Below, in pieces: positions 6,285 through 44,060 of a stretch of DNA of 64,000 nt. Where the stretch lies: positions 7,201,001-7,265,000 of the forward strand of contig NZ_JAVDYC010000001.1 in the NCBI RefSeq assembly GCF_031458255.1, given 5' to 3'. The notes below the pieces were generated by a model, which ran no database searches, was not told the DNA's origin, and saw only the letters and a list, made by a program, of their open reading frames with translations. The stretch's first letter is position 1. Every line of letters starts with the position of its first letter. The translations under genes and the position numbers were made by a program. This DNA is from Catenuloplanes niger (GTDB lineage: Bacteria > Actinomycetota > Actinomycetes > Mycobacteriales > Micromonosporaceae).

Positions 6285-7519
6285 CCAGTGGCTTTGGCAC
6301 GGTGGAGGCGGCGGTGGCGGCGATCGCCGAGGGCCGCCCGGTCATCGTGGTGGACGACGAGGACCGGGAGAACGAGGGCGACCTGATCTTCGCGGCCGAG
6401 AAGGCGACGCCGGAGCTGGTCGCGTTCATGCGCCGCTGGACGTCCGGCTACATCTGCGCGCCGATCACCGAGGCGGACGCGGACCGGCTCGACCTGCCCC
6501 CGATGTACCACACCAACCAGGACCGGCGCGGTACCGCGTACACGGTCACGGTCGACGCCCGGGAGGGCGTCGACACCGGCATCTCGGCCGCGGACCGCGC
6601 GCACACGCTGCGGCTGCTCGCCGACCCCGCGACCGGCCCGACCGACCTCTCCCGGCCCGGCCACGTGGTGCCGCTGCGCGCCCGCGCCGGCGGCGTGCTG
6701 CGCCGGCCCGGCCACACCGAGGCCGCGATCGACCTGGCCGAGCTGGCCGGCCTGCGCCCGGCCGGGGTGCTCTGCGAGATGGTCAACGACGACGGCACGA
6801 TGATGCGGATGCCGGACCTGGAGGCGTTCGCGACCGAGCACGGGGTGGTGCTGATCAGCATCGCCGAGCTGATCGCGTACCGGCGCCGGCACGAGAAGCA
6901 GGTGGAGCGGGTCGTGGAGGCGCGCATCCCGACGCCGCACGGCGTGTTCCGCGCGTTCGGCTACCGGGTCGCGCACGACAGCGCGGAGCACGTGGCGATG
7001 GTCTACGGCGAGATCGGCGACGGCCAGGACGTGCTGGTCCGGGTGCACTCCGAGTGCCTGACCGGCGACGTCTTCGGCTCGCAGCGCTGCGACTGCGGCC
7101 CGCAGCTGGACGCGTCGTTCGCCCGGGTCGCGCGCGAGGGCCGGGGCGTGGTGCTCTACGTGCGCGGCCACGAGGGGCGGGGCATCGGGCTGCTGCACAA
7201 GCTTCAGGCGTACCAGCTGCAGGATCGTGGCCTGGACACGGTCGACGCGAACCTGGAGCTGGGCCTGCCCGCGGACGCCCGCGACTACGGCACCGGCGCG
7301 CAGATCCTCTACGACCTGGGCGTGCGCACCATGACGCTGCTGACCAACAACCCGGCGAAGCGGGCCGGGCTGGAGGGGTACGGGCTGCAGATCGTCGGGC
7401 GCGAGGGCCTGCCGGTCCGCCCGCACCCGGAGAACGTCCGCTACCTGCGCACCAAGCGCGACCGGATGGGCCACACCTACGACGAGGCCGACGAGCAGGT
7501 CCTCAACGGACTCGCCTGA
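6281..7519 (+). CDS. ribBA: RibBA: 3,4-dihydroxy-2-butanone 4-phosphate synthase / GTP cyclohydrolase II
   Basis: 412-residue fusion supplying both precursors of riboflavin. The N-terminal DHBP synthase (about 1-200) has [16 protein letters not shown], the [10 protein letters not shown] strand and GHTEAA. The C-terminal GTP cyclohydrolase II (about 205-405) has the zinc ligands in [27 protein letters not shown] and the TNNPAK segment. Key residues of both halves appear intact, so both activities are expected. ATG overlaps the ribE stop (ATGA), and the stop lies 20 nt before ribH. Confidence 0.95.
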
Positions 7520-8156: not shown

Positions 8157-8564
8157 GTGATCGAGTTCCATCTGAGCGCGCGGTCGGGTGTCTCGCCGTA
8201 CCTGCAGCTGGTGCACCAGGTGCGGCAGTCGCTCCGGCTGGGGCGGCTGAGCGTCGGCGACCAGCTGCCGACCGTGAAGGACGTGGTGGCCCGGCTGGCC
8301 ATCAACCCGAACACGGTGCTCAAGGCCTATCGTGAGCTGGAGCGGGAGGGGCTGGTCGCGCCGCGGCCGGGCGTCGGCACGTTCATCACCGGGCTGCCGG
8401 CCGGCGAGTCGCTCACCGCGCACGAGCCGCTGCGCCGCGACCTGCGGGACTGGATCGAGCGGGCCCGCGCGGCCGGCCTGGACCCGGAAGCGGTGGAGGC
8501 GCTGTTCGCGGCCACGATCCGCGAGGTTTTTCCGGCGGCCTCGACGAGTGAGGCCACCCGATGA
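8157..8564 (+). CDS. GntR-family repressor, YtrA subfamily
   Basis: 135-residue DNA-binding protein. The winged helix (about 1-75) has the classic [32 protein letters not shown]-type order, in which LPTVKDV and [13 protein letters not shown] are visible. A short helical tail follows, as in YtrA-type regulators that control neighbouring ABC transporter genes. GTG 8157 is preferred to GTG 8151 because GGAATGGA at 8142-8149 is then 7 nt upstream. The stop overlaps the next gene by 4 nt. It probably binds the ATAGTGCTA repeats in its own promoter. Confidence 0.88.
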
Positions 8565-17075: not shown

Positions 17076-17756
17076 TCAAGGGCGGAACCGATAGCCCATC
17101 CCCGGCTCGGTGATCAGATGCCGGGGGCGGGCGGGGTCGTCCTCCAGCTTGCGGCGCAGTTGCGCCAGATACTGGCGCAGGTAGTTGGTCTCCGTCCGGA
17201 ATTGCGGGCCCCACACCTCCTGCAGCAGTTGCCGCTGGCTGATCAGCTTCCCCGGATTGCGCAGCATGATTTCCAGAATGTGCCACTGGGTCGGCGTCAG
17301 GCGCAGCTGTTCACCGTCGTCCCCGCGTACCGTGCGGTCCGCGAGGTCGACGGTCCACCGCCCGATCCGGGCCACCGGCGCGGTCTCGCCGGTGGTGTTG
17401 ATCCGCCGGGTCACGGCACGGATCCGGGCGAGCAGCTCCTCCACGCCGAACGGCTTGGTGATGTAGTCGTCCGCGCCCGCGTCCAGCGCGGCCACCTTCT
17501 CCTCGCTGCTCGCGCGCCCGGACAGCACGATCACCGGGACCGCGGTCCAGCCGCGCACGCCGCGGATCACCTCGACGCCGTCCATGTCCGGCAGACCCAG
17601 GTCGAGCACGATCAGGTCGGGGTGGTGCTGCGCGACCGCGCGCAGCGCCGAGCCGCCGTCCGGCGCGACCTCCACGGCGTACCCGCGCGCCTTGAGGTTG
17701 ATCCTCAGCGCGCGGAGGATCTGGGGCTCGTCGTCGACGACGAGGATGCGGGTCAT
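17076..17756 (-). CDS. kdpE: KdpE response regulator
   Basis: 226-residue OmpR-type transcription factor that activates kdp genes when phosphorylated by KdpD under potassium limitation or osmotic stress. The receiver domain (about 1-120) has DDE at 8-10, phospho-acceptor Asp in LIVLDLGLPDMDG and KPF. The C-terminal winged helix (about 130-225) has LTPTQWHILEIMLRNPGK and TNYLRQYLAQLRRKL. The start codon overlaps the kdpD stop (ATGA). Last gene of the kdp operon. Confidence 0.95.
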   Translation of the reverse strand: MTRILVVDDEPQILRALRINLKARGYAVEVAPDGGSALRAVAQHHPDLIVLDLGLPDMDGVEVIRGVRGWTAVPVIVLSGRASSEEKVAALDAGADDYITKPFGVEELLARIRAVTRRINTTGETAPVARIGRWTVDLADRTVRGDDGEQLRLTPTQWHILEIMLRNPGKLISQRQLLQEVWGPQFRTETNYLRQYLAQLRRKLEDDPARPRHLITEPGMGYRFRP

Positions 17757-20332
17757 TCGTCCTCCAGATCGAGATCGAACTGCTGCGGGGGTACGGCCGG
17801 GAGCGCCAGCACCATGGTCAGGCCGCCCCCGGGCGTGGCCGACGGGGTCAGCGTGCCGCCCATCGCCTCGGCCAGGCCGCGGGAGAGCGCCAGCCCGAGC
17901 CCCACGCCGGTGTGGTTGTCCCGGTCGCCGAGCCGCTGGAACGGCAGGAACACGGTGTCCCAGTCCTCCTCCGGGATGCCCGGCCCGGTGTCGATCACGC
18001 GCAGTTCCACCTCGCCGCCGTGCGTGCTGGCCGACAGCATCGGCGGCGCGTCCGGCGGGCTGTGCCGCAGCGCGTTCGCCACCAGGTTGACCAGCACCCG
18101 TTCGAGCAGGCCGGGGTCCGCGGTGACCTCGGGCAGGTCCGGCGGGATGTTGACCCGCACCGCGTGCGCGGCCGGCCCGATCTCGTCGAGCGCGCGCGGC
18201 ACCGCGTCCTCCAGCCCGATGTCGATCAGCGACAGCCCGAGCACGCCCGCCTGCAGCCGGCTCATGTCCAGCAGGTTCGCCACCAACCGGCCGAGCTGGT
18301 CGAGCGACTCGTCCGCGGTGGCCAGCAGCTCGTCGCGGTCCTCGTCGTCGAACGCGATCTCCGCGTCCGCGCCGGACGCGCTGCGCAGGCTGGTGACGGC
18401 GGCCTTCGCGGAGGCCAGCGGCGTGCGCAGGTCGTGGCTGACCGCGGCCAGCAGCGCGGTGCGCATCCGGTCCGCGGCCGCCAGCGGCTTGACCGTGGCC
18501 GCCTCGGCCTTGAGCCGCTCCTGGCGCAGCGCGACCGCGGCCTGCGCGGCGAACGCCTCCACGATCCGCCGGTCGTCCGCGGCCAGCGGCGCGCCGCGCA
18601 GCGCCAGGCTGAGCGCGTCGTCGATCGGCACATCCACCTCGGCCTCGCCGGGCGCGGCGCACGGCGGCCCGCCGACACCGGCGACCACCTTCCAGGCCAG
18701 CGGGTCGCGGTGCACGTCCGGCCGGGTGCCCGCGTCGGGGTCGCGTTCCAGCAGCGTGACCGAGGTGAAGCCGAACGTCTCGCGGAGCCGTTCGAGCAGC
18801 GCGGGCAGCGGCCGGGCGCCACCGAGCACGCTGCCCGCGACCGCCGCGAGCGTGGTCGCCTCCGCGGCGGCCCGGGCCGCCTCCCGGGTGCGCCGCGCGG
18901 CCAGGTCCACGACCGCGCTCACCGACGCGGCGACCAGCACGAAGATGACCAGGGCGAGCAGGTTGTCCGGCTCCGCGATGGTGAACCGGCCGGTCGGCGA
19001 CGTGAAGAACCAGTTCAGCAGCAGCGAGCCGCCGACGGCCGCGAGCAGCGCGGGCCAGAGGCCGCCGACCAGCGCCACGCCGACCGACGCGGCCAGGAAG
19101 AGCAGGATGTCCAGGGTCAGCGACAGCTCGCCGGGCAGCACGTGGACCAGCAGCGTGAGCAGCGGCATGCCGGCCAGCGCGAGCACGAACCCGGCGATCC
19201 GCCGCCCCCGGGACAGCGCGGTGCTGCCGTCGAACGACCGCCGCCGCCCGGTCCCGGCCCGTTCGTGGGTGACCAGGTGCACGTCGATGCTGCCGGAACG
19301 GGCCGTGGTGGTGACGCCGACGCCGGGGGAGAGCAGCTGCGCCAGCCGGCCGCGCCGGCTGGCGCCGAGCACCAGCTGGGTGGCGTTGACGCCGCGCGCG
19401 AACGTGAGCAGCGCGGCCGGGACGTCACCGCCGACCACCTGGTGGTACGTGCCGCCGACGCTCTCCACCAGGACGCGCTGCCGGGCGAGCAGCGCCGGGT
19501 CGACGCCGGCCAGCCCGTCGTTGCGGGACACGTGCACGGCCAGCAGCTCCGCGCCCTTGGTACGGTCCGCGATCCGGGCGGCGCGGCGGATCAGCGTCTC
19601 GCCCTCCGGGCCGCCGGTCAGCGCGACCAGCACCCGCTCCCGCGTCTCCCAGGTGTCGGCGATCTCGTGCTCCGCGCGGTACCGGCCGAGCTGGTCGTCC
19701 ACCTTGTCCGCGAGCCAGAGCAGCGCCAGCTCGCGCAGCGCGGTCAGGTTGCCCAGCCGGAAGTAGTTGCCGAGCGCCGCGTCGATCCTCTCCGGCCGGT
19801 AGACGTTGCCGTGCGCCATCCGGCGGCGCAACGCCTCCGGCGTCAGGTCGGCCAGCTCCACCTGCTCGGCCGCGCGCACGATCTCGTCCGGCACGGTCTC
19901 CCGCTGCGGTACGCCGGTGATCTCCTCGACCACGTCGTTGAGCGACTCGAGGTGCTGCACGTTCACGGTGGAGAGCACGTCGATGCCGGCGTCCAGCAGC
20001 TCCTGGACGTCCTGCCAGCGCTTCTCGTGTTGTCCACCGGGCACGTTCGTGTGGGCCAGCTCGTCGACCAGCGCCACCTCGGGCCGGCGGGCCAGCACCG
20101 CGTCGGTGTCCATCTCGGTGAACTCGGCGCCGCGGTAGGTCACGGCCCGGCGCGGCACCACCTCCAGGTCGCCGATCATCGCCGCGGTCATCGGCCGGCC
20201 GTGCGTCTCGACGAAGCCGATCACCACGTCGGTGCCGCGCGCGGCCCGGCGAGCCGCCTCCTCGAGCATGGCGTAGGTCTTGCCCACGCCCGGGGCCGCC
20301 CCCAGGTAGATCCGTAGTTGTCCGCGTGCCAC
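17753..20332 (-). CDS. kdpD: KdpD sensor histidine kinase
   Basis: 859-residue membrane kinase/phosphatase partner of KdpE. In order: the KdpD N-terminal domain starting ARGQLRIYLGAAPGVGKTYAM (Walker A-like), a universal-stress-like domain (about 210-350), four close membrane helices (about 375-480), a GAF-like segment, HisKA with the phospho-His in SHDLRTPLA, and HATPase motifs DTGPGIPEED and GVGLGLALSRG. GTG 20332 is preferred: GGAGAGG sits 9 nt upstream and the protein then begins at the conserved N terminus. A longer frame to 20473 would overlap kdpC. Confidence 0.93.
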   Translation of the reverse strand: MARGQLRIYLGAAPGVGKTYAMLEEAARRAARGTDVVIGFVETHGRPMTAAMIGDLEVVPRRAVTYRGAEFTEMDTDAVLARRPEVALVDELAHTNVPGGQHEKRWQDVQELLDAGIDVLSTVNVQHLESLNDVVEEITGVPQRETVPDEIVRAAEQVELADLTPEALRRRMAHGNVYRPERIDAALGNYFRLGNLTALRELALLWLADKVDDQLGRYRAEHEIADTWETRERVLVALTGGPEGETLIRRAARIADRTKGAELLAVHVSRNDGLAGVDPALLARQRVLVESVGGTYHQVVGGDVPAALLTFARGVNATQLVLGASRRGRLAQLLSPGVGVTTTARSGSIDVHLVTHERAGTGRRRSFDGSTALSRGRRIAGFVLALAGMPLLTLLVHVLPGELSLTLDILLFLAASVGVALVGGLWPALLAAVGGSLLLNWFFTSPTGRFTIAEPDNLLALVIFVLVAASVSAVVDLAARRTREAARAAAEATTLAAVAGSVLGGARPLPALLERLRETFGFTSVTLLERDPDAGTRPDVHRDPLAWKVVAGVGGPPCAAPGEAEVDVPIDDALSLALRGAPLAADDRRIVEAFAAQAAVALRQERLKAEAATVKPLAAADRMRTALLAAVSHDLRTPLASAKAAVTSLRSASGADAEIAFDDEDRDELLATADESLDQLGRLVANLLDMSRLQAGVLGLSLIDIGLEDAVPRALDEIGPAAHAVRVNIPPDLPEVTADPGLLERVLVNLVANALRHSPPDAPPMLSASTHGGEVELRVIDTGPGIPEEDWDTVFLPFQRLGDRDNHTGVGLGLALSRGLAEAMGGTLTPSATPGGGLTMVLALPAVPPQQFDLDLEDE

Positions 20333-20417
20333 GCCCCTGATCCTCTCCCGCGCCCGCTCGCCGTGATCCAGGCGTCCCCCATGTCGTTCTAGCAGCATGC
20401 GGGACGCCTGGACCGGG

Positions 20418-21266
20418 TCAGGCGCGCGCGTCCAGCGCCAGGTTGAGTGCCAGCACGTCGACCGCGGGCTCACCGAGGAAGCCGAGCGCGCGGCCGGTGG
20501 TGTGCGCGCGGACCAGCGCGGTCACGTCGGTCTCGGCGAGGCCGCGCTCCCGGGCCACCCGCGGCGCCTGCAGCTCGGCATAGGCCACGCTGATGTGCGG
20601 GTCCAGGCCGCTGGCGGACGCCGTGACCGCGTCGGCCGGCACCGGCGACCGGTCCGGGGAGTCGCCGCGGACCGGCGTGACCACGCCGCCGGAGTAGTCC
20701 TCGCCCGGGTTCGCGCACTCCACGGCCGTACCCTCGAAGGTGGTCGTGAAGGGGGTGGCCGGGCAGGCCTGGTTGACGCTGACCGCGCGGGTGACGGCGC
20801 CGGTCAGACCGTCCGCGCGGAAGACGCTCAGCACCGCGCCGACACCGTCCGGAGTGCAGTAGGGACGCCGGCCGTCCACGCCCTCCAGCGTGCCGACCGC
20901 CAGACTGCGCGCGCAGACCTGGGTCAGCAGGCCGGGCGAGTCCGGGCCGTCCACCACGCTCTCCGGGCCGAGGTTGGACGCGCCGGTGGCCAGCGGGTCG
21001 TAGCCCGCGCCGCCGGCCGAGGGACGGGACTGGAAGTACCGGCGGATCGGGTTGCCGTCCGCGTCGGTGAAGTGCTGGCCGATCAGCGCGCTGCCGATTA
21101 CGGTGCCGTCGCGGGTGACGAGCGAGCCCCCGGCCTTGCCGCTGAGCCCGGGCACCAGACCGACACCCACCATGACCAGGGGGTACGCGAGTCCGAGCGC
21201 GACGGTGAGGACGAGCAGCGCGCGGAGCGCCGCGAGGTGCTGGGAGATCCAGGAAGGAAGCCGCAT
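20418..21266 (-). CDS. kdpC: KdpC subunit of the potassium-transporting ATPase
   Basis: 282 residues, longer than the roughly 190 of Escherichia coli KdpC because of an insertion in the middle (about 105-195, with Cys-containing PYCTPDG and NQACPATP). One N-terminal membrane helix (about 12-38) anchors it. Conserved KdpC blocks include GSALIGQHF, YFQSRPSA, GASNLGPES and, at the end, SGLDPHISVAYAELQAPRVARERG. It stabilises ATP binding by KdpB in the Kdp complex. It follows kdpB by 5 nt. Confidence 0.93.
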   Translation of the reverse strand: MRLPSWISQHLAALRALLVLTVALGLAYPLVMVGVGLVPGLSGKAGGSLVTRDGTVIGSALIGQHFTDADGNPIRRYFQSRPSAGGAGYDPLATGASNLGPESVVDGPDSPGLLTQVCARSLAVGTLEGVDGRRPYCTPDGVGAVLSVFRADGLTGAVTRAVSVNQACPATPFTTTFEGTAVECANPGEDYSGGVVTPVRGDSPDRSPVPADAVTASASGLDPHISVAYAELQAPRVARERGLAETDVTALVRAHTTGRALGFLGEPAVDVLALNLALDARA

Positions 21267-21271
21267 GCGAA

Positions 21272-23464
21272 TCAGAGCCCCGGGATGAGCGAGAGGAACA
21301 GGTCGATGAGCTTGATGCCGAGGAACGGCGCGACGACGCCGCCCAGGCCGTAGATCCAGAGGTTGCGGCTCAGCAGGGCGGCGGCGCTGCTCGGGCGGTA
21401 GCGGACGCCGCGCAGCGCGAGCGGGATCAGCGCGACGATGACCAGCGCGTTGAAGACGACCGCGGCCAGGATCGCGGTGGTCGGACTGGCCAGGCGCATG
21501 ACGTTGAGCGCGTCCAGGCTCGGGTGGACGCCGGCGAACATGGCCGGGATGATCGCGAAGTACTTGGCGACGTCGTTCGCGACGGAGAACGTGGTCAGCG
21601 CGCCGCGGGTGATCAGCAACTGTTTGCCGATCTCCACGATCTCGATCAGCTTGGTCGGGTCGGAGTCGAGGTCGACCATGTTGCCGGCCTCCTTCGCGGC
21701 CGACGTGCCGGTGTTCATCGCCACGCCGACGTCGGCCTGGGCGAGCGCGGGCGCGTCGTTGGTGCCGTCGCCGGTCATCGCGACCAGCCGGCCGCCCTCC
21801 TGCTCCTTCCGGATCAGCGCGAGCTTGTCCTCCGGCGTCGCCTCCGCGAGCACGTCGTCCACGCCCGCCTCGGCCGCGATCGCCTTCGCGGTCACCGGGT
21901 TGTCGCCGGTGATCATGACGGTCCGGATGCCCATCCGCCGCATCTCGGCGAAACGCTCCCGCATGCCGGGCTTGACCACGTCCTTCAGGTGGATCACGCC
22001 GAGCGCCCGGGCCGGCGCGCCGTCGGTGTGCACGGCGACCACCAGCGGCGTGCCGCCGGACGCGCTGACCCGCTCGACCAGGTCCGCGATCGCGGGCGCG
22101 GGCGTGCCGCCGTTCTCCCGAACCCAGGACAGCACGGCACCGGCCGCGCCCTTGCGGATCCGCCGCACGCCACCGGCGGTGCCGGTCTTCTCGGCCGGGC
22201 CGGTCTCCTCGGCGGGAAGGTCGACGCCGCTCATCCGGGTCTGTGCGGTGAACTCGACGAACGTGGCCCGCTCCACCGCACGCTCGCGGAACCCGAAGTC
22301 CTTGGCGAGCACCACGACCGAGCGGCCCTCCGGCGTGCCGTCCGCGAGGCTGGAGAGCTGCGCCGCGTCCGCCAGCTCCACGTCGCCGACGCCGGGCGCG
22401 GGCAGGAACTCGGCCGCCTGCCGGTTGCCCAACGTGATCGTGCCGGTCTTGTCCAGCAGCAGCGTGCTGACGTCACCGGCCGCCTCGACCGCGCGGCCGC
22501 TCATCGCCAGCACGTTGCGCTGCACCAGCCGGTCCATGCCGGCGATGCCGATCGCGGAGAGCAGCGCGCCGATCGTGGTCGGGATCAGGCAGACCAGCAG
22601 CGAGACCAGCACGATGCCGGTGATGCCGTCACCGTCCAGCGCGAGCGTGTCCGGCGCCGCCGCCTGGTATCCCTTCGCGAAGATCGCCAGCGGCTGCAGC
22701 GTGACCACCGCGAGCAGGAAGATCACGGTGAGCGCGGCGAGCAGGATGTTGAGCGCCACCTCGTTCGGTGTCTTCTGCCGGTTCGAGCCCTCGACCAGCG
22801 AGATCATCCGGTCGATGAAGCTCTCGCCCGGCTTCTGCGTGATCCGCACGACGATCCGGTCGGAGAGCACCCGGGTGCCGCCGGTGACCGCGCTGCGGTC
22901 GCCGCCGGACTCGCGGATCACCGGCGCGGACTCACCGGTGATCGCGGACTCGTCCACGCTGGCGATGCCCTCGACCACGTCGCCGTCGCCCGGGATGATC
23001 TGCCCGGCCGTGACCTCGACGACGTCGCCCTGCCCGAGCTGGCCGGCGGCCACGTCCTCCGCGGTCCAGCCGCCCGGCCGGGCACCGGGTTCCCAGCCGG
23101 TGAGCCGGGTCGCGACGGTGTCCTTCTTGGCGGCGCGCAGCGTGGCCGCCTGCGCCTTGCCGCGGCCCTCGGCGACCGCCTCGGCCAGGTTCGCGAAGAT
23201 CACGGTGAGCCAGAGCCAGACCGTGATCGCGACGGCGAACCCGGACGGCTCGGCGACCGAGAGCACCGTGGTGAACACGGCGCCGATCTCGACGATCAGC
23301 ATGACCGGATTCCGCCACATGACGCGCGGGTCGAGCTTCGCCATCGCGTCCGGCAGCGAACGGATCAGCTGCGCCGGGTCGAGCAACCCGCCGCCGACCG
23401 CCCGCGCCGGCCGGTCCTGCCGCGGCGCCGGCGTCTCCGGCGCGTCGAGAGTACTGATGGTCAT
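21272..23464 (-). CDS. kdpB: KdpB, P-type ATPase subunit
   Basis: 730-residue P-type ATPase that energises potassium uptake by KdpA. The phosphorylation motif [13 protein letters not shown], actuator TGESAPV, hinge [16 protein letters not shown] and nucleotide-domain residues are intact, and about seven membrane helices are present. A Lys/Arg-poor insertion near residue 430 ([13 protein letters not shown]) looks like a loop expansion. The ATG overlaps the stop of the Ala/Thr-rich upstream frame by 4 nt rather than following kdpA directly, which is unusual. Confidence 0.96.
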
Positions 23465-24084
23465 GATCGTTCACAGGCCTTCTGGGAGAGACGAAGATCA
23501 AGATCCGCATCGCGGTACGAGCCCACCGCGCCCGACACCCCGGCACACCCGGCCACCGCGGCCGGTACCTCGGTGCGAACCGCTGCCACCACCGCGCCCG
23601 CGGCACACCCGGCCACCGCGGCCGCAACCACGCCGGTAGCGGTTGTCGCGGCCGCTTCCGGCCGCACAGCTGTTGTGGCCTCGTTCGTGGCGTGCCCGGC
23701 CACCGCTTTCGGCCGGACAGCTGTCGCGGCCTTGTTCGTGGCGCGGCCGGCCGCCCCGGCCGGAACCACGCCGGGAGTGGCTGTTGCCGCCGTCGCAGTC
23801 CGAAGGGCTGTGTTCGCGCCGCGAACGGCTGCCGTGGCCGTGGTTACGCCACGAGTGGCCGTCGTGGCCGGTGCCGCGCCGTGAGCGGCCGTGGTGGCCG
23901 GTGGCACGGTGTGGGTGGCCGTGGTGGCCGGTGCCGCGGTGTGCAGGGGTGCTGCCGTGCGGGCGGGGACGCGCGCCGCGGACGGGGCCGTGCCGGTGGG
24001 CCGGCCCGCGTTCGGGGTGGGTGTGCGGGTCGCGGGCCGTTCGTGTGCGGGTCCGGTGCGCGGGTACGGGACTGGCGTGCGCAT
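23461..24084 (-). CDS. Unrecognised Ala/Thr/Val-rich repetitive ORF between kdpA and kdpB
   Basis: 207 codons filling what is usually a few bases between kdpA and kdpB. The ATG overlaps the kdpA stop by 1 nt and has GGAAGG 6 nt before it. The TGA overlaps the kdpB ATG (ATGA). Composition is extreme: Ala, Thr, Val and Pro dominate, with degenerate repeats such as [10 protein letters not shown] / [10 protein letters not shown] / [10 protein letters not shown] (30-nt period) and [11 protein letters not shown] / [11 protein letters not shown] (51-nt period). No signal peptide, domain or clear membrane helix is seen, though [18 protein letters not shown] is mildly hydrophobic. It may be a real coupled gene or a repeat expansion that happens to stay open. 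Function unknown. Confidence 0.5.
23541..23944. repeat. Degenerate tandem repeats inside the kdpA-kdpB insert
   Basis: Three repeat families: a perfect 24-mer at 23541-23564 and 23601-23624; a 51-nt repeat beginning near 23659 and 23710 (CGGCCGCACAGCTG / CGGCCGGACAGCTG); and a 30-nt repeat starting at 23855, 23885 and 23915 around the core GGCCGTGGTGGCCGGTG. The pattern suggests growth by slippage or recombination. Confidence 0.75.
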
Positions 24085-25739
24085 CAGAGGCCTTCCGCGA
24101 GCGGGCCGAGCGCGAGCGCGGGCAGGAAGGTGAGCGCGACCAGCACGACCGTCACGCCGGCGACCATGCCGACGAACAGCGGCCGGTGGGTGGGGAGCGT
24201 GCCCTCGGAGTCGGGCACCGGGGTCTGCCGGGCGAGCGACCCGGCCAGCCCGAGCACGAAGATGATCGGCAGGAAGCGGCCGAGCAGCATCGCCAGGCCG
24301 GTCGCGACGTCCCACCACAGTGTGTTGACCGTGATGCCGGCGAACGCGGAACCGTTGTTGTTGGACGCGGAGGTGAACGCGTAGAGCACCTCGGACAGGG
24401 CGTGCGGGCCCACGTTCAGCGCGGTGGACGCGTTGCCGGTGGCGAACGCGAGCGCAGTCCCGGTCAGCACCAGGACCGGCGTGATCAGGAAGTACAGCGA
24501 GGCAAACTTGATCTCCCGCGCGCCGATCTTCTTGCCGAGGTACTCCGGGGTGCGGCCGACCATGAGCCCGGCCACGAACACGGTGATCGTCGCGAGCACC
24601 AGCATGCCGTAGAGGCCGGAGCCGGTGCCGCCGGGCGCGACCTCGCCGAGCATCATGTTGATCATCGGCAGCATGCCGCCGAGCGCGGTGTACGAGTCGT
24701 GGAACGAGTTGACCGCGCCGGTCGAGGTGAGCGTGGTGATCGCGGCGAAGACCGCCGAGCCGAAGACGCCGAACCGGACGTCCTTGCCCTCCATGGCCGC
24801 GCCCGCCGCGGTCGGCACGGTGCCGCCGGCCCGCATCTCGAAGACCGTGGCCAGCACGATGCCGGCCAGCGCGAGCAGCGCCATCACGGAGAGGATCGCG
24901 TACCCCTGCCGCTTCTGGCCGACCATCCGGCCGAACACGCGCGGCATGCTGAACGGGATCAGCAGGATCAGGAAGAGCTGGACCCAGTTCGTCCAGGTCG
25001 CCGGGTTGGAGAACGGGTGCGCGCTGTTCGCGTTGTAGAAGCCGCCGCCGTTGGTGCCCAGCAGCTTGATGGCCTCCTGCGACGCGACCGGGCCGCCGGT
25101 GATCGACTGCGTCGCGCCGGCGAGCGTGGTCGCGTCGGTGCCGGTGCTGAGGTTCTGCACGACGCCGCCGAGCATCAGTACGAGCGCGCCGAGCACCGAG
25201 ACCGGCAGCAGGACGCGGAGCGTGACCCGGGTCAGGTCGATCCAGAAGTTGCCGAGCTGGTCGGTCCGGGACCGGGCGAAGCCGCGGACGACCGCGACCG
25301 CGACCGCGATGCCGACGGCCGCGGAGACGAAGTTCTGCACGGCCAGCCCGGCCATCTGGACCAGGTGGCCCAGTGCGGACTCACCGGCGTACGCCTGCCA
25401 GTTGGTGTTCGTCACGAAACTGACCGCGGTGTTCCAGGCGACGTGGTCGGTGACCGGCGGCATGCCCAGGCTCAGCGGCAGGTGGTGCTGCAGGCGCAGC
25501 AGCCCGTAGAGGAACAGGACCGAGACGGCGGAGAACGCCAGCACGCTGCGGCCGTAGACGGCCCAGCTCTGCTCCGCCTCCGGGTCGACCCCGATGAGCC
25601 GGTAGATGCCGCGCTCCACCCGGGAGTGCCCGCGCCCGGAGACCACGCGGAACAGGTAGTCGCCGAACGGCCGGTGGACCGCGGCGATCGCGGCGACGAG
25701 CGAGACCAGGAAGATCACGCCCGCGACTGTGGTGTTCAT
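24084..25739 (-). CDS. kdpA: KdpA, potassium-translocating subunit
   Basis: 551-residue membrane channel-like subunit of the Kdp pump, with ten predicted helices arranged as four pore units. Typical blocks include the N-terminal [23 protein letters not shown] with the selectivity loop, [30 protein letters not shown] and [15 protein letters not shown]. The end, GPLAEGL, is normal. It starts 13 nt after kdpF. Its stop overlaps the Ala/Thr-rich frame instead of leading straight to kdpB. Confidence 0.96.
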
Positions 25740-25752
25740 GTCAGCGGCTCTC

Positions 25753-25842
25753 TCAGAACTTCTCGGGGAACAGCAGCGCGACGAGCAGGTAGCCGGTCAG
25801 GCCGACGGCGAGGACCAGGCCGATCAGGTTGACCGCGGTCAC
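25753..25842 (-). CDS. kdpF: KdpF, small stabilising subunit of the Kdp pump
   Basis: 29-residue single-helix membrane peptide with the family pattern [15 protein letters not shown] and the C-terminal ending LLFPEKF. KdpF stabilises the KdpABC complex. GTG start overlaps the stop of the preceding 27-codon ORF (GTGA), and kdpA follows 13 nt after its stop. Confidence 0.9.
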
Positions 25843-25922
25843 AGCCGGGTCACCGCCCGCAGCAGCAGGGTGAGCGTCGCGAACAGCGCCGCCGTTCCCA
25901 GCACGAATGCCACGTCAAGCAT
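25839..25922 (-). CDS. 27-residue predicted membrane peptide, first gene of the kdp operon
   Basis: MLDVAFVLGTAALFATLTLL begins a single hydrophobic helix ending in a basic RAVTRL tail. A textbook ribosome site (GAAGGAG) lies 7 nt before ATG, and its TGA overlaps the GTG of kdpF, so the two are translationally coupled. The start signal is stronger than that of kdpF, which supports real translation. I do not recognise a named family. It may be an extra small Kdp subunit or a leader whose translation sets kdpF output. Confidence 0.65.
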   Translation of the reverse strand: MLDVAFVLGTAALFATLTLLLRAVTRL

Positions 25923-26241
25923 CGTGCGACTCCTTCGTCTCAGGTGCGTCCGACCGGCGGGTGCGCCGGTCGCCTGGGCAATGGAACGCCTGGTCGCGGC
26001 CGGATCGGGGAAACCTGACGCGTTGCATACGGGTCGCCGCGGTTTCTTGACGCGTTTTTCACGGCCGACCCTTTTGTCGGATTCCCGGGCGTGGGCGAGG
26101 TAGCGGTGTCACGCATCGTGATGTGACAATTCGTCATGTGCTCGTTTGTTGCGTGACCCGGCCCTGACTCCAGTCGCGTCGTGACGCGCGTGGCGGAAGC
26201 GGCCGGTGGGGGATTCGTCACTCAGCCGAAAGGGGAAAATG
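25923..26241. other. Divergent regulatory region between kdp and the XRE gene
   Basis: No gene supported. It must carry the KdpE-controlled kdp promoter (leftwards) and the XRE gene promoter (rightwards). The notable element is a perfect inverted repeat TGTCAC-N10-GTGACA at 26107-26128. An AT-richer patch near 26045-26075 is a candidate for KdpE binding. A 94-codon reverse frame here looks incidental. Confidence 0.45.
26107..26128. promoter_or_regulatory. Inverted repeat TGTCAC-N10-GTGACA
   Basis: Perfect 6-bp arms one helical turn apart, 110 nt before the XRE start and 185 nt before the kdp operon. Possible dimer-binding operator; the protein is unknown. Confidence 0.35.
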
Positions 26242-27141
26242 ATGCCCCGGAACCAGAGCGCCGCCGTCAGTCGCCGCCGCCTCAGAACCGCGCTCCGCCG
26301 TCTCCGCGTCGCCCGCGACATGACCCAGCGCGAGGTCGCGGACGCCCTGCGCTGGTCCAGCGCGAAACTGATGCGCATCGAGGCCGGAAAGGTCAGCGTC
26401 TCGTTCACCGACCTGCAGGCGCTGCTGAAGCACTACGGTGTCACGGATCCGGCGCGGATCGACACGTTGAACGAGTTGTCGGTCGCGGCGCGCGCGGGCT
26501 CCGAGATCGGGGTGCGGTACCGGGACGTCCTGTCCTCGGGAATGATGGAACTCCTCGAACACGAGGAAAGCGCCGGTGCCATTCGGAACTTCGAGCCGCA
26601 ACTCGTTCCCGGTCTGTTGCAGACGCCGGAGTACGCCTATTCCACTCTGCGTTTCCTGCCCGACGAGGAGCTTTCCGCCGAGGTTGTCGAGCGGCGGGTG
26701 CGGGCGCGCATGGAGCGTGCGGAACTGCTGACCCGTGACGATTCGCCGGACGCGTTCTTCGTCCTCGACGAATCGGTGCTGTGCCGGAAGGTCGGCGCCG
26801 AGTCGGGGGCGGACGGTGTGATGGCCGCGCAGCTGGAGCACCTGCGCGAGATGGCCGCACGGCCGCACGTCTCGATCCGGGTCCTGCCGTTCGGCGCGGG
26901 TCTCTACGGCGCGCTCCGCTCGCCGTTCGTGATCCTCGAATTCGACGACGAGCTGGACGACGGCCTGGTCTACGTCGAGTCACCGCAGGACGAGCTGATC
27001 ATCCGGGAGGACGTCGAGTCGATCGTCCGCTACGCCGACCGGTTCCGCGCGCTGGAGAAGCGGGCCACGTCCCGGGAAATGCTCCCGGTGGTAATCGAGG
27101 CGGCACTGAATCGATTGGAGTCGCACTCCGTACTCGAGTGA
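26242..27141 (+). CDS. XRE-family regulator with DUF5753 domain
   Basis: 299-residue protein with an N-terminal Cro-type helix-turn-helix (about 10-70; RVARDMTQREVADALRWSSAKLMRIE) and a long C-terminal DUF5753 domain (about 95-285) with VPGLLQTPEYA and DESVLCRKVG. These proteins are abundant in actinomycetes and typically act with a small DUF397 partner, as here. AGGGGAAA lies just before two ATGs, at 26239 and 26242, and the second has the better spacing. Target genes unknown. Confidence 0.88.
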   Translation: MPRNQSAAVSRRRLRTALRRLRVARDMTQREVADALRWSSAKLMRIEAGKVSVSFTDLQALLKHYGVTDPARIDTLNELSVAARAGSEIGVRYRDVLSSGMMELLEHEESAGAIRNFEPQLVPGLLQTPEYAYSTLRFLPDEELSAEVVERRVRARMERAELLTRDDSPDAFFVLDESVLCRKVGAESGADGVMAAQLEHLREMAARPHVSIRVLPFGAGLYGALRSPFVILEFDDELDDGLVYVESPQDELIIREDVESIVRYADRFRALEKRATSREMLPVVIEAALNRLESHSVLE

Positions 27142-28398: not shown

Positions 28399-29355
28399 TC
28401 ACGGCAGCTTTGGCGCCAGCAGCCGGGCCACGTCCAGCTCGCGGCCGTGATAGTCCCGGCCGTCCTCGACGTGCCACACCCAGGACAGCACGGACAGCAC
28501 GAAACCCCAGGCCAGCACGCGATCGTACGGCAGCGCGAGCCCGTCGGCGACCTGCTCGACCCGGGCCGGGGCGAGCCGGGCGAGCGCGTCGTCGCGTACC
28601 CATGGATCGGGGTTGTAGAGGAACGCGCCCACCTCGGCCGCCGGGTCGCCGGTGCGGCCGTGCGGATCGATCGCCAGCCAGGGCTCGCGGGTGGCGGCGA
28701 GAATGTTGTCGTGGTGCAGGTCGCCGTGCAGCACCACGCGGGTGGTGGTGGACGCGCACAGCTCCCGCAGCAACCCGAGCGCCCGCACCACCGGGGCGTC
28801 CCCCGGATTCCGGGCCAGATGCGCCACGAAGTCGGCCGCGTGCCGCTCGACCGGCTCCAACGCGGCGTCCGGTTCCCACGCGGCGTCCGGTTCCCACGCG
28901 GCGTCCGGCTCCCGCGCGGCGTCCGGCTCCGCCGGGGCGGCCGGCGGTGGGGTGGGGTGGTGCAGGCGGCGCACGACGTCGATGAAGACGGCGGTCGCGG
29001 CCTCGTCGTCGTGTGCGGCCCGGGTGCGCAGCGTGCCTCCGGGCACGGCGCGCTCCAGCAGCAGCGCGCCCTCCGCGTCGTCGTGGGCGAGCAGCCGCAC
29101 CGCGCCCCGGCCGCGGTAGTGGGTGAGCGCGGCCCGTTCCGCGCGCAGGTGCGCGGCCGACGGCACGCCGAGCTTGAGCACCGCGTCCGCGCCGGCCGGC
29201 GCGACCCAGTTGACGGTCGGCGGGAAGGGCGCGCCGACGGTCAGCCCCCACCGCGCCGCGACCGTCGCGACGCGGGCCGGAAGCGTGTCCAGCCAGCGGG
29301 CGCCGTCGTCGCCCCAGGTCTCGATCACGGTGCGGCGGAACGTGTCGGTGACCAC
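28399..29355 (-). CDS. APH-type (aminoglycoside/hydroxyurea phosphotransferase-like) kinase
   Basis: 318-residue small-molecule kinase fold. Catalytic loop VVLHGDLHHDNIL holds the Asp base, and AIDPHGRTGDPAAE holds the metal-binding Asp. The N-terminal lobe has the nucleotide-site Lys in VLKLGVP and ERA. This arrangement matches the APH(6)/hydroxyurea kinase group, some members of which inactivate streptomycin. Chromosomal homologues often have unknown substrates, so resistance should not be assumed. A linker near residues 142-165 is made of four EPDAA(R/W/W/L) repeats encoded by an 18-bp tandem repeat. Confidence 0.82.
   Translation of the reverse strand: MVTDTFRRTVIETWGDDGARWLDTLPARVATVAARWGLTVGAPFPPTVNWVAPAGADAVLKLGVPSAAHLRAERAALTHYRGRGAVRLLAHDDAEGALLLERAVPGGTLRTRAAHDDEAATAVFIDVVRRLHHPTPPPAAPAEPDAAREPDAAWEPDAAWEPDAALEPVERHAADFVAHLARNPGDAPVVRALGLLRELCASTTTRVVLHGDLHHDNILAATREPWLAIDPHGRTGDPAAEVGAFLYNPDPWVRDDALARLAPARVEQVADGLALPYDRVLAWGFVLSVLSWVWHVEDGRDYHGRELDVARLLAPKLP
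28861..28932. repeat. 18-bp tandem repeat, four copies, in the APH-type gene
   Basis: Units start at 28861, 28879, 28897 and 28915. The first two are identical and the others differ by a few bases. The period is a multiple of three, so copy-number change keeps frame and lengthens an EPDAAx linker. Confidence 0.9.
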
Positions 29356-42418: not shown

Positions 42419-42790
42419 ATGCTCACCGTGGTCGCCTACGGCCTCGCCGTCCTGCTCAACGTCTTCATCATCGTGATCGGCGTCCGGTTCCTGGCCGCGC
42501 CGGTGGCGGCCGCGGCCGGCTACGGCGTGCCCGCGGACCCGCGGGCGGCCGGCGCCTACCTGTCGGTCAAGGGCGTCCGCGACATCACCGTCGGCCTGAT
42601 CGGCCTGGCCCTCCTGACGTTCGCGGGCGCGCCGGCCGCGGCCTGGTTCATGCTGGTCGTCGTGCTGGTGCCGCTCGGCGACACGCTCATCGTCCTGCGT
42701 CACGGCGGCACCCGCGCCACCGCCTTCGGCGTCCACCTCAGCACCGCGGTCATCGTGGCGATCAGCGCGTCACTGCTGTTCACCCAGTGA
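42419..42790 (+). CDS. DUF4267-like four-helix membrane protein
   Basis: 123 residues, four hydrophobic helices (about 5-25, 45-65, 68-88 and 98-118). The loop ADPRAAGAYLSVKGVRDI is typical of DUF4267 small membrane proteins, often next to TetR regulators. Function unknown. AAGGAG lies 5 nt before ATG. Controlled by the divergent TetR through two palindromic sites. Confidence 0.78.
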   Translation: MLTVVAYGLAVLLNVFIIVIGVRFLAAPVAAAAGYGVPADPRAAGAYLSVKGVRDITVGLIGLALLTFAGAPAAAWFMLVVVLVPLGDTLIVLRHGGTRATAFGVHLSTAVIVAISASLLFTQ

Positions 42791-42890
42791 CGCGGCGCGT
42801 GCGCCTCACACGCGGCGCGTGCGCCTCACACGCGGCGCGTGCGCCTCACACGCGGCGCGTGCGCCTCACACTCGGCGCGTGCGCCTCACC
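42791..42890. repeat. 20-bp tandem repeat, five copies
   Basis: Units CGCGGCGCGTGCGCCTCACA start at 42791, 42811, 42831 and 42851 (identical); the fifth, at 42871, differs at two positions. The array begins at the base after the DUF4267 stop. Each unit contains the hyphenated palindrome GGCGC-GT-GCGCC, so it could form serial hairpins between two convergent genes. The TCA in the last unit provides the stop codon of the reverse DUF4262 gene. Confidence 0.95.
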
Positions 42891-44004: not shown

Positions 44005-44060
44005 GTCTGTTCCGCGGGTGGTCACCAGAAGAGTCTGTTCCGCGGGTGGTCACCAGAAGA
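44005..44060. repeat. Perfect 28-bp tandem duplication
   Basis: 44005-44032 and 44033-44060 are identical (core GGGTGGTCACCAGAAGA). Located between the PH-domain gene and the convergent terminator. Confidence 0.95.

Follow-up and report, generated by a model that had tools for sequence, protein, structure and literature searches.

A repeat-built open reading frame of probable kdpA-tail origin between kdpA and kdpB of Catenuloplanes: ribosome relay or tolerated spacer

Introduction

Mycobacterial interspersed repetitive units (MIRUs) are mobile and occur as many dispersed copies in their genomes. According to the review PMC12548453, such an element comprises a repetitive stretch with an internal open reading frame (ORF) that is coupled to the gene which follows by a −4 nt (ATGA) overlap, and its insertion likely costs little expression. 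The same review describes short upstream ORFs which deliver ribosomes to the gene downstream, the act of translating being what matters and not the product (PMC12548453). Gene overlaps of −1 and −4 nt are by far the commonest and are needed for coupling, and reporter measurements on six gene pairs from E. coli and Haloferax revealed that a spacing of about 20 nt almost abolishes coupling and reinitiation, both as reported in PMC10666635.

Here we describe an ORF lodged between the potassium-pump genes kdpA and kdpB of Catenuloplanes niger within a window of 64,000 nt (contig NZ_JAVDYC010000001.1, positions 7,201,001 to 7,265,000). In layout this spacer resembles MIRUs, as its ORF also overlaps the downstream start by 4 nt, but among the matches listed for five genomes of the genus it appears as a single locus without evident mobility, it carries 30-nt and 51-nt repeats, has a probable tail-duplication origin and resides in a non-mycobacterial host. 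As in termination-reinitiation between subunits of a complex (TGATG/ATGA), both spacer junctions show short overlaps of −1 and −4 nt; the kdp case differs in that a non-conserved ORF lies between the subunit genes, which would require two successive hand-overs and not one. With short upstream ORFs it would share that translation rather than the product matters, but it is located inside an operon between two structural genes, comprises 207 codons and is built of repeats. No insertion between kdpA and kdpB is named in the titles or abstract openings of the literature that we found.

Results

The minus-strand operon in the window reads, in order, kdpF-like frame, kdpA, ORF, kdpB, kdpC and kdpD (Table 1). 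The best named matches of kdpA were found in Micromonospora with 79–81% identity. An initial annotation, made from the sequence alone, had claimed a 207-codon ORF between kdpA and kdpB overlapping the former by 1 nt and the latter by 4 nt; coordinates, start, stop and both overlaps were confirmed, and the degenerate 10- and 17-residue repeats that it described were recovered as tandem repeats. Alanine (61 residues), threonine (35), proline (20) and valine (20) dominate the 207-residue peptide. The SD-like GGAAGG noted 6 nt before the ATG of the ORF is indeed present, but it belongs to the coding end of kdpA (Ala-Glu-Gly codons) and is no signal brought by the ORF.

Table 1. Features at the kdpA-kdpB junction and neighbouring parts of the kdp operon (window positions).
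Feature	Position	Strand	Remark
Small frame with GTG start, which we take to be kdpF-like	25753..25842	-	spotted by eye in the sequence
kdpA, 551 codons	24084..25739	-	82–92% identity matches in 4 other genomes of the genus
GGAAGG within final kdpA codons, 6 nt before ORF ATG	24091..24096	-	putative upstream copy of the SD-like site of the kdpA tail, from sequence
TGATG, kdpA stop/ORF start overlap of 1 nt	24082..24086	-	TGATG also in G003 and G004
Bridging ORF, 207 codons, Ala/Thr-rich, flat GC1–3	23461..24084	-	ATG 24084..24082, TGA 23463..23461
30-nt (10-codon) tandem repeat, 3 copies, 83% matches	23853..23943	-	
51-nt (17-codon) tandem repeat, 2 copies, 84% identical	23652..23753	-	
CTCCCAGAAGGCCTGTGA, probably copied from the 3' end of kdpA	23471..23488	-	17 of 18 bases shared with G002 kdpA
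AGAAGG inside the CTCCCAGAAGGCCTGTGA copy, 13 nt before kdpB ATG	23478..23483	-	equal spacing in G002
ATGA, ORF stop/kdpB start overlap of 4 nt	23461..23464	-	likewise in G003
kdpB, 730 codons	21272..23464	-	
Presumed kdpC	20418..21266	-	
Presumed kdpD	17753..20473	-	

The genome of the window (G000) was compared with four other genomes of the genus (G001 to G004; five in total), all five of which contain kdpA. Between the kdpA stop and the kdpB ATG lie 619 nt in G000, 304 nt in G003, 77 nt in G004, 6 nt in G002 and 5 nt in G001. Looking for the same frame in relatives, as the initial annotation had proposed, yielded bridging frames of 102 codons in G003 and 24 codons in G004 and none in G001 and G002. 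The frame of each of the three spacer-bearing genomes opens at the kdpA stop and closes in a narrow range around the kdpB ATG, from 4 nt inside to 3 nt ahead of it: G000 and G003 show −1 and −4 nt overlaps at the two junctions, and G004 combines TGATG at the first junction with a 3-nt gap at the second, its TAG ending 3 nt before the kdpB ATG.

On a wider scale, 111 kdpA loci were measured (L031 repeats L001, and L017 and L038 are apparently the same contig), the gap being counted from the kdpA stop up to the codon that aligns with residue 33 of KdpB, which is a rough measure where KdpB N-termini differ. This distance amounts to 715 nt at the window locus (L001/L031) and 400 nt in G003 (L002), and no other locus exceeds 180 nt; kdpA and kdpB are normally almost adjacent, as the initial annotation had stated, and the wide gap is rare. 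The next-largest values are 180 nt (L060 and L075, whose kdpA matches end prematurely), 170 nt (L003) and 161 nt; the value of −383 nt for L021 results from a kdpA frame that runs on. In many relatives from the family an in-frame ATG of kdpB follows the kdpA stop after only 20–41 nt. A search of 61 genomes with the ORF protein, in most of which about 51 candidates were scored, returned the self-match only; it also misses the G003 frame, which is recognisable by its position, end sequence and repeat period. Judging from these sequence comparisons, the bridging ORF is young and lineage-specific.

Among the matches listed for the spacer in the five genomes of the genus, no dispersed copy was found beyond the spacer itself and the orthologous G003 site, in a search where low-complexity copies could be missed. 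The many further matches are short or compositional, and the best of those listed (E 6.7e-8, 73% over 124 nt) is a Pro/Ala/Arg-rich repeat in G004. Eighteen of the 20 listed match loci were inspected as candidate spacer copies, leaving aside L112, which is the site itself, and L127, which overlaps L124, and none was accepted as a copy elsewhere: L113 and L117 are the G003 kdp site, 12 lie in frames with GC3 exceeding GC2 by 0.26–0.45, and L114, L115, L124 and L129 lie in other GC-rich repeats that lack such a frame.

The origin of the spacer can be read most easily in G004. The final residues of its 24-codon frame, ALGPLAEGL, repeat the end of KdpA, and alignment of the spacer with the last 60 nt of kdpA from the five genomes gave scores of 38–62, none of which was reached by any of 1000 shuffles. 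By sequence, the G004 spacer clearly derives from a copied 3' end of kdpA. The 18 bases of CTCCCAGAAGGCCTGTGA in G000 are identical to the G002 kdpA tail at 17 positions (1 of 1000 shuffles was as good), and the spacer end of G003, CTCGCAGAAGGCTCGTGA, is identical at 16 of 18 (20 of 1000 shuffles); both sit a few bases upstream of kdpB, as does the tail copy in G004. Only this comparison with the G002 tail is clear. With the other tails the match is weaker or at chance level: the G000 score was equalled in 489 (own tail, chance level), 577 (G003), 34 (G004) and 60 (G001) of 1000 shuffles and the G003 score in 953 (own tail, chance level), 540 (G000), 897 (G004) and 307 (G001). The best G000 match falls, whole or in part, on these same 18 bases with 4 of the 5 reference tails. 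The tail copy comprises 18 aligned bases in G000 and G003 and 28 and more in G004, where it is read in a different frame, and no second site of the spacer was found.

We read the tail copies in the spacers as duplication, and the G000 and G003 spacers probably keep the same tail copy before kdpB, stemming from the same event as that of G004. The kdpA tail carries AGAAGG in G002 or GGAAGG in G001, which is the SD-like site nearest kdpB in these spacer-less genomes. Duplication of the tail together with this site would place one copy near kdpB and the other 6 nt before the new ORF, which would explain the GGAAGG found there. The AGAAGG before kdpB is a possible ribosome site of this gene. A copied kdpB head inside the spacers was rejected as another origin, its alignment staying at chance level. 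A mosaic G004 operon with kdpA and kdpB from different lineages was left as a weak candidate by the windowed distances, taken with kdpD rows excluded.

The larger spacers are repetitive with a common period. Autocorrelation of the G000 and G003 spacers peaks at a lag of 30 nt, and the ten strongest lags of each are multiples of three. A similar 30-nt unit is common to both (27 of 30 bases at one place), as is an 84-nt spacer end with 13 different bases, and their length difference of 315 nt is a multiple of three. Minisatellite arrays are frequent: a total of 400 kb of G000 contained 40 of them, and samples of 100 kb contained 13 in G004, 4 in G003 and 6 each in G039 and G050, which belong to other genera. 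At 80 named loci centred on kdp, 745 kb held 7 arrays, including 3 in 95 kb of ten Micromonosporaceae loci; as this density lies below that of random stretches, kdp loci are a biased yardstick. Elsewhere in the window, near-perfect tandem repeats which look recent occur at 42790–42889 (20 nt, 5 copies, 98%) and 44005–44060 (28 nt, 2 copies, 100%). An 18-nt tandem repeat encoding AWEPDA units (28851–28945) lies inside a minus-strand ORF at 28399–29355, named by eye as presumably phosphotransferase-like, with normal codon-position GC.

The nucleotide composition of the ORF is unlike that of its neighbours. GC1/GC2/GC3 values are 0.74/0.764/0.764 for the ORF and 0.748/0.738/0.796 for the G003 frame, compared with 0.654/0.482/0.98 for kdpA and 0.702/0.492/0.971 for kdpB, and 49 of 208 codons of the ORF end in A or T versus 32 of 1283 in kdpA and kdpB together. 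A useful control is the in-frame low-complexity insert of kdpB between VDLPA and RR(I/V)RKG, with 14, 20, 70, 59 and 5 residues in G000, G003, G004, G002 and G001 and GC3 values of 0.929, 1.0, 0.929, 0.915 and 1.0, respectively. As these inserts keep a GC3 of at least 0.915, such growth in a surely translated frame of this operon has high GC3, unlike the spacer. The insert is located at about 22184–22222 of the window, at 6600–6761 of L133 and at 6604–6714 of L134, and contains SAETGTA repeats in G004.

Sequence differences likewise lack the pattern of a protein gene. Counted over the alignable end and pairs of adjacent repeat copies, the 31 differences are spread over the three codon positions as 12/9/10, deviating from the 30/14/75 of kdpA (P 0.001) and compatible with uniformity (P 0.77), these comparisons being few and partly non-independent with only 28 codons alignable between species. 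For this 28-codon end alone, P was 0.066 against the kdpA pattern, dN and dS were 0.16 and 0.24 (kdpA 0.041 and 0.175), and 8 of 11 changed codons alter the residue. The check by codon-position bias that the initial annotation had suggested did not support a protein gene. A 3-nt periodicity is present in the ORF frame of G000 (power at 1/3 of 13.1, whereas the maximum of 300 shuffles was 3.4 and the other harmonics of 30 reached 3.5) and also in G003 (6.8 versus 3.2 in shuffles and 4.0 at other harmonics), but it is missing from the initial 150 nt of the G000 spacer (1.0 versus up to 2.9 in shuffles). It is carried by Ala, Thr and Val codons and could reflect selection for these codons or a triplet-like founder unit. 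No Pfam match above cut-off was obtained for the G000 or G003 peptide and no PDB match for that of G000. On this sequence evidence the ORF peptide does not look selected.

Is the frame nevertheless held open? The initial annotation had stressed that the intervening DNA stays open for 207 codons; this is correct, but weak evidence alone, as the ORF frame also stays open in 22.5% (G000 spacer) and 62.5% (G003 spacer) of dinucleotide shuffles, 2000 for each. Over these two larger spacers the ORF frame contains no stop, versus 3 and 4 stops in the other sense frames. In the G004 spacer all three sense frames are free of stops. Bridging in three of three spacers and the stop counts are only suggestive of a frame held open. 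A crude scan for ORFs of at least 40 codons, with a GC-contrast gene caller that misses genes and 20-kb pieces that cut some genes, covered 464 kb of G000, made up of 400 kb and the window, and found one other flat-GC, doubly coupled ORF there (48 codons). Samples of 100 kb each gave none in G003, G004 and G039 and one in G050. The scanned stretches thus lend little weight to a general habit of forming such ORFs. Flat-GC ORFs overlapping called genes at both ends are located at 8392–8647 of L170 (84 codons) and 18331–18478 of L151 (48 codons; 0-based starts); these are possible bridging spacers in other operons.

Discussion

The history that we consider likely begins in an ancestor of G000, G003 and G004, where the kdpA 3' end was duplicated or a recombination event left it behind as a scar. 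As the kdpA stop reads TGATG there, the spacer would have formed a frame that begins with this stop. In G000 and G003 the DNA between the two tails would then have grown by 30- and 51-nt repeats and, because the repeat units are multiples of three, the frame would still end on the kdpB start. The Ala/Thr-rich peptide would be a by-product. A further step would be that ribosomes which finish kdpA reinitiate at TGATG, translate through the spacer and reinitiate once more at the ATGA of kdpB; whether they pass from kdpA to kdpB in this manner appears evenly balanced. Given that coupling is nearly lost at a spacing of about 20 nt in the gene pairs mentioned above, an unbridged 620-nt spacer should cut it, so that bridging would matter if kdpB depends on kdpA translation. 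The in-frame kdpB ATG 20–41 nt past the kdpA stop in many family relatives indicates that tight coupling may not be needed. Other points that speak against this history are the 3-nt periodicity of the frame, the tail copy of G000 and G003 being clear only with the G002 tail, and the different frame in which the tail copy is read in G004.

The initial annotation had offered three readings of the ORF: a new Kdp accessory, a translational spacer setting the A:B ratio, and neutral repeat growth. The last of these is supported. A purely neutral scar would have the same origin and growth, with the open frame and the overlaps as left-overs of its birth or chance and with kdpB using its own ribosome site, and we regard it as a serious possibility that falls somewhat short of probable. 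It agrees with the proportion of shuffles that stay open, with the G004 spacer being stop-free in all three sense frames, with the AGAAGG kept 13 nt before the kdpB ATG and with minisatellites being common in G000 and G004. It fits less well with all three spacers being bridged end to end, with stops being confined to the other sense frames of the two larger spacers and with the single further flat, doubly coupled ORF in the scanned part of G000. The translational spacer holds as far as its layout goes, the kdpA stop being bridged to the kdpB start in all three spacer-bearing genomes.

The remaining readings assign a function to the product or to the transcript. A disordered or membrane-associated accessory protein, made in step with KdpA and KdpB, would suit the operon position with start and stop overlaps, the 3-nt periodicity and a 19-residue stretch of mean hydropathy 2.25 (residues 151–169) in G000. 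This stretch is absent in G003 (maximum 0.89), the length varies from 207 to 102, 24, 0 and 0 codons across the five species, with no frame in 2 of the 4 relatives, and flat GC3, even codon-position differences, altered residues and missing domain or structure matches all oppose a protein gene, so that we consider an accessory role very improbable. Hardly better placed is a structured RNA spacer controlling mRNA processing or kdpB translation. Fold z-scores of −5.1 in G000 (20 shuffles) and −1.8 in G003 (100 shuffles), inverted repeats of 27–40 nt and a GC skew that changes sign halfway along 23461–24084 spoke for it. However, 60 shuffles gave −3.1 for G000 and −2.2 for G003; a special fold of the sense strand was rejected, as −3.1 lies inside the range of 13 neighbouring minus-strand windows (−4.0 to 0.2, 25 shuffles each). 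Moreover, the antisense (plus) strand folds better (z −5.9), the G003 stretch has no inverted repeat and an Rfam search found no match up to E 1. A promoter within the spacer was likewise rejected, as no sigma-70-type match occurs in 23300–26300.

Taken together, we deal with a young, lineage-specific bridging spacer ORF of probable kdpA-tail origin which acts as a ribosome relay or is merely tolerated. We put forward only tentatively that it is a non-mobile relay, in which, after the duplication, selection for the hand-over from kdpA to kdpB kept an otherwise meaningless repeat tract open and in frame during its growth to 102 and 207 codons. If the relay reading is true, a long ORF would have arisen de novo and been retained for its translation as such. 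The five genomes form a natural series of 0, 0, 24, 102 and 207 codons in which it can be tested whether coupling alone keeps a long ORF open. The locus also suggests a route for the birth of orphan ORFs, in which a gene end carrying the ribosome site of the next gene is duplicated and then extended by repeats in multiples of three. Finally, the locus warns against taking every overlap-coupled, in-frame ORF of GC-rich DNA for a protein gene.
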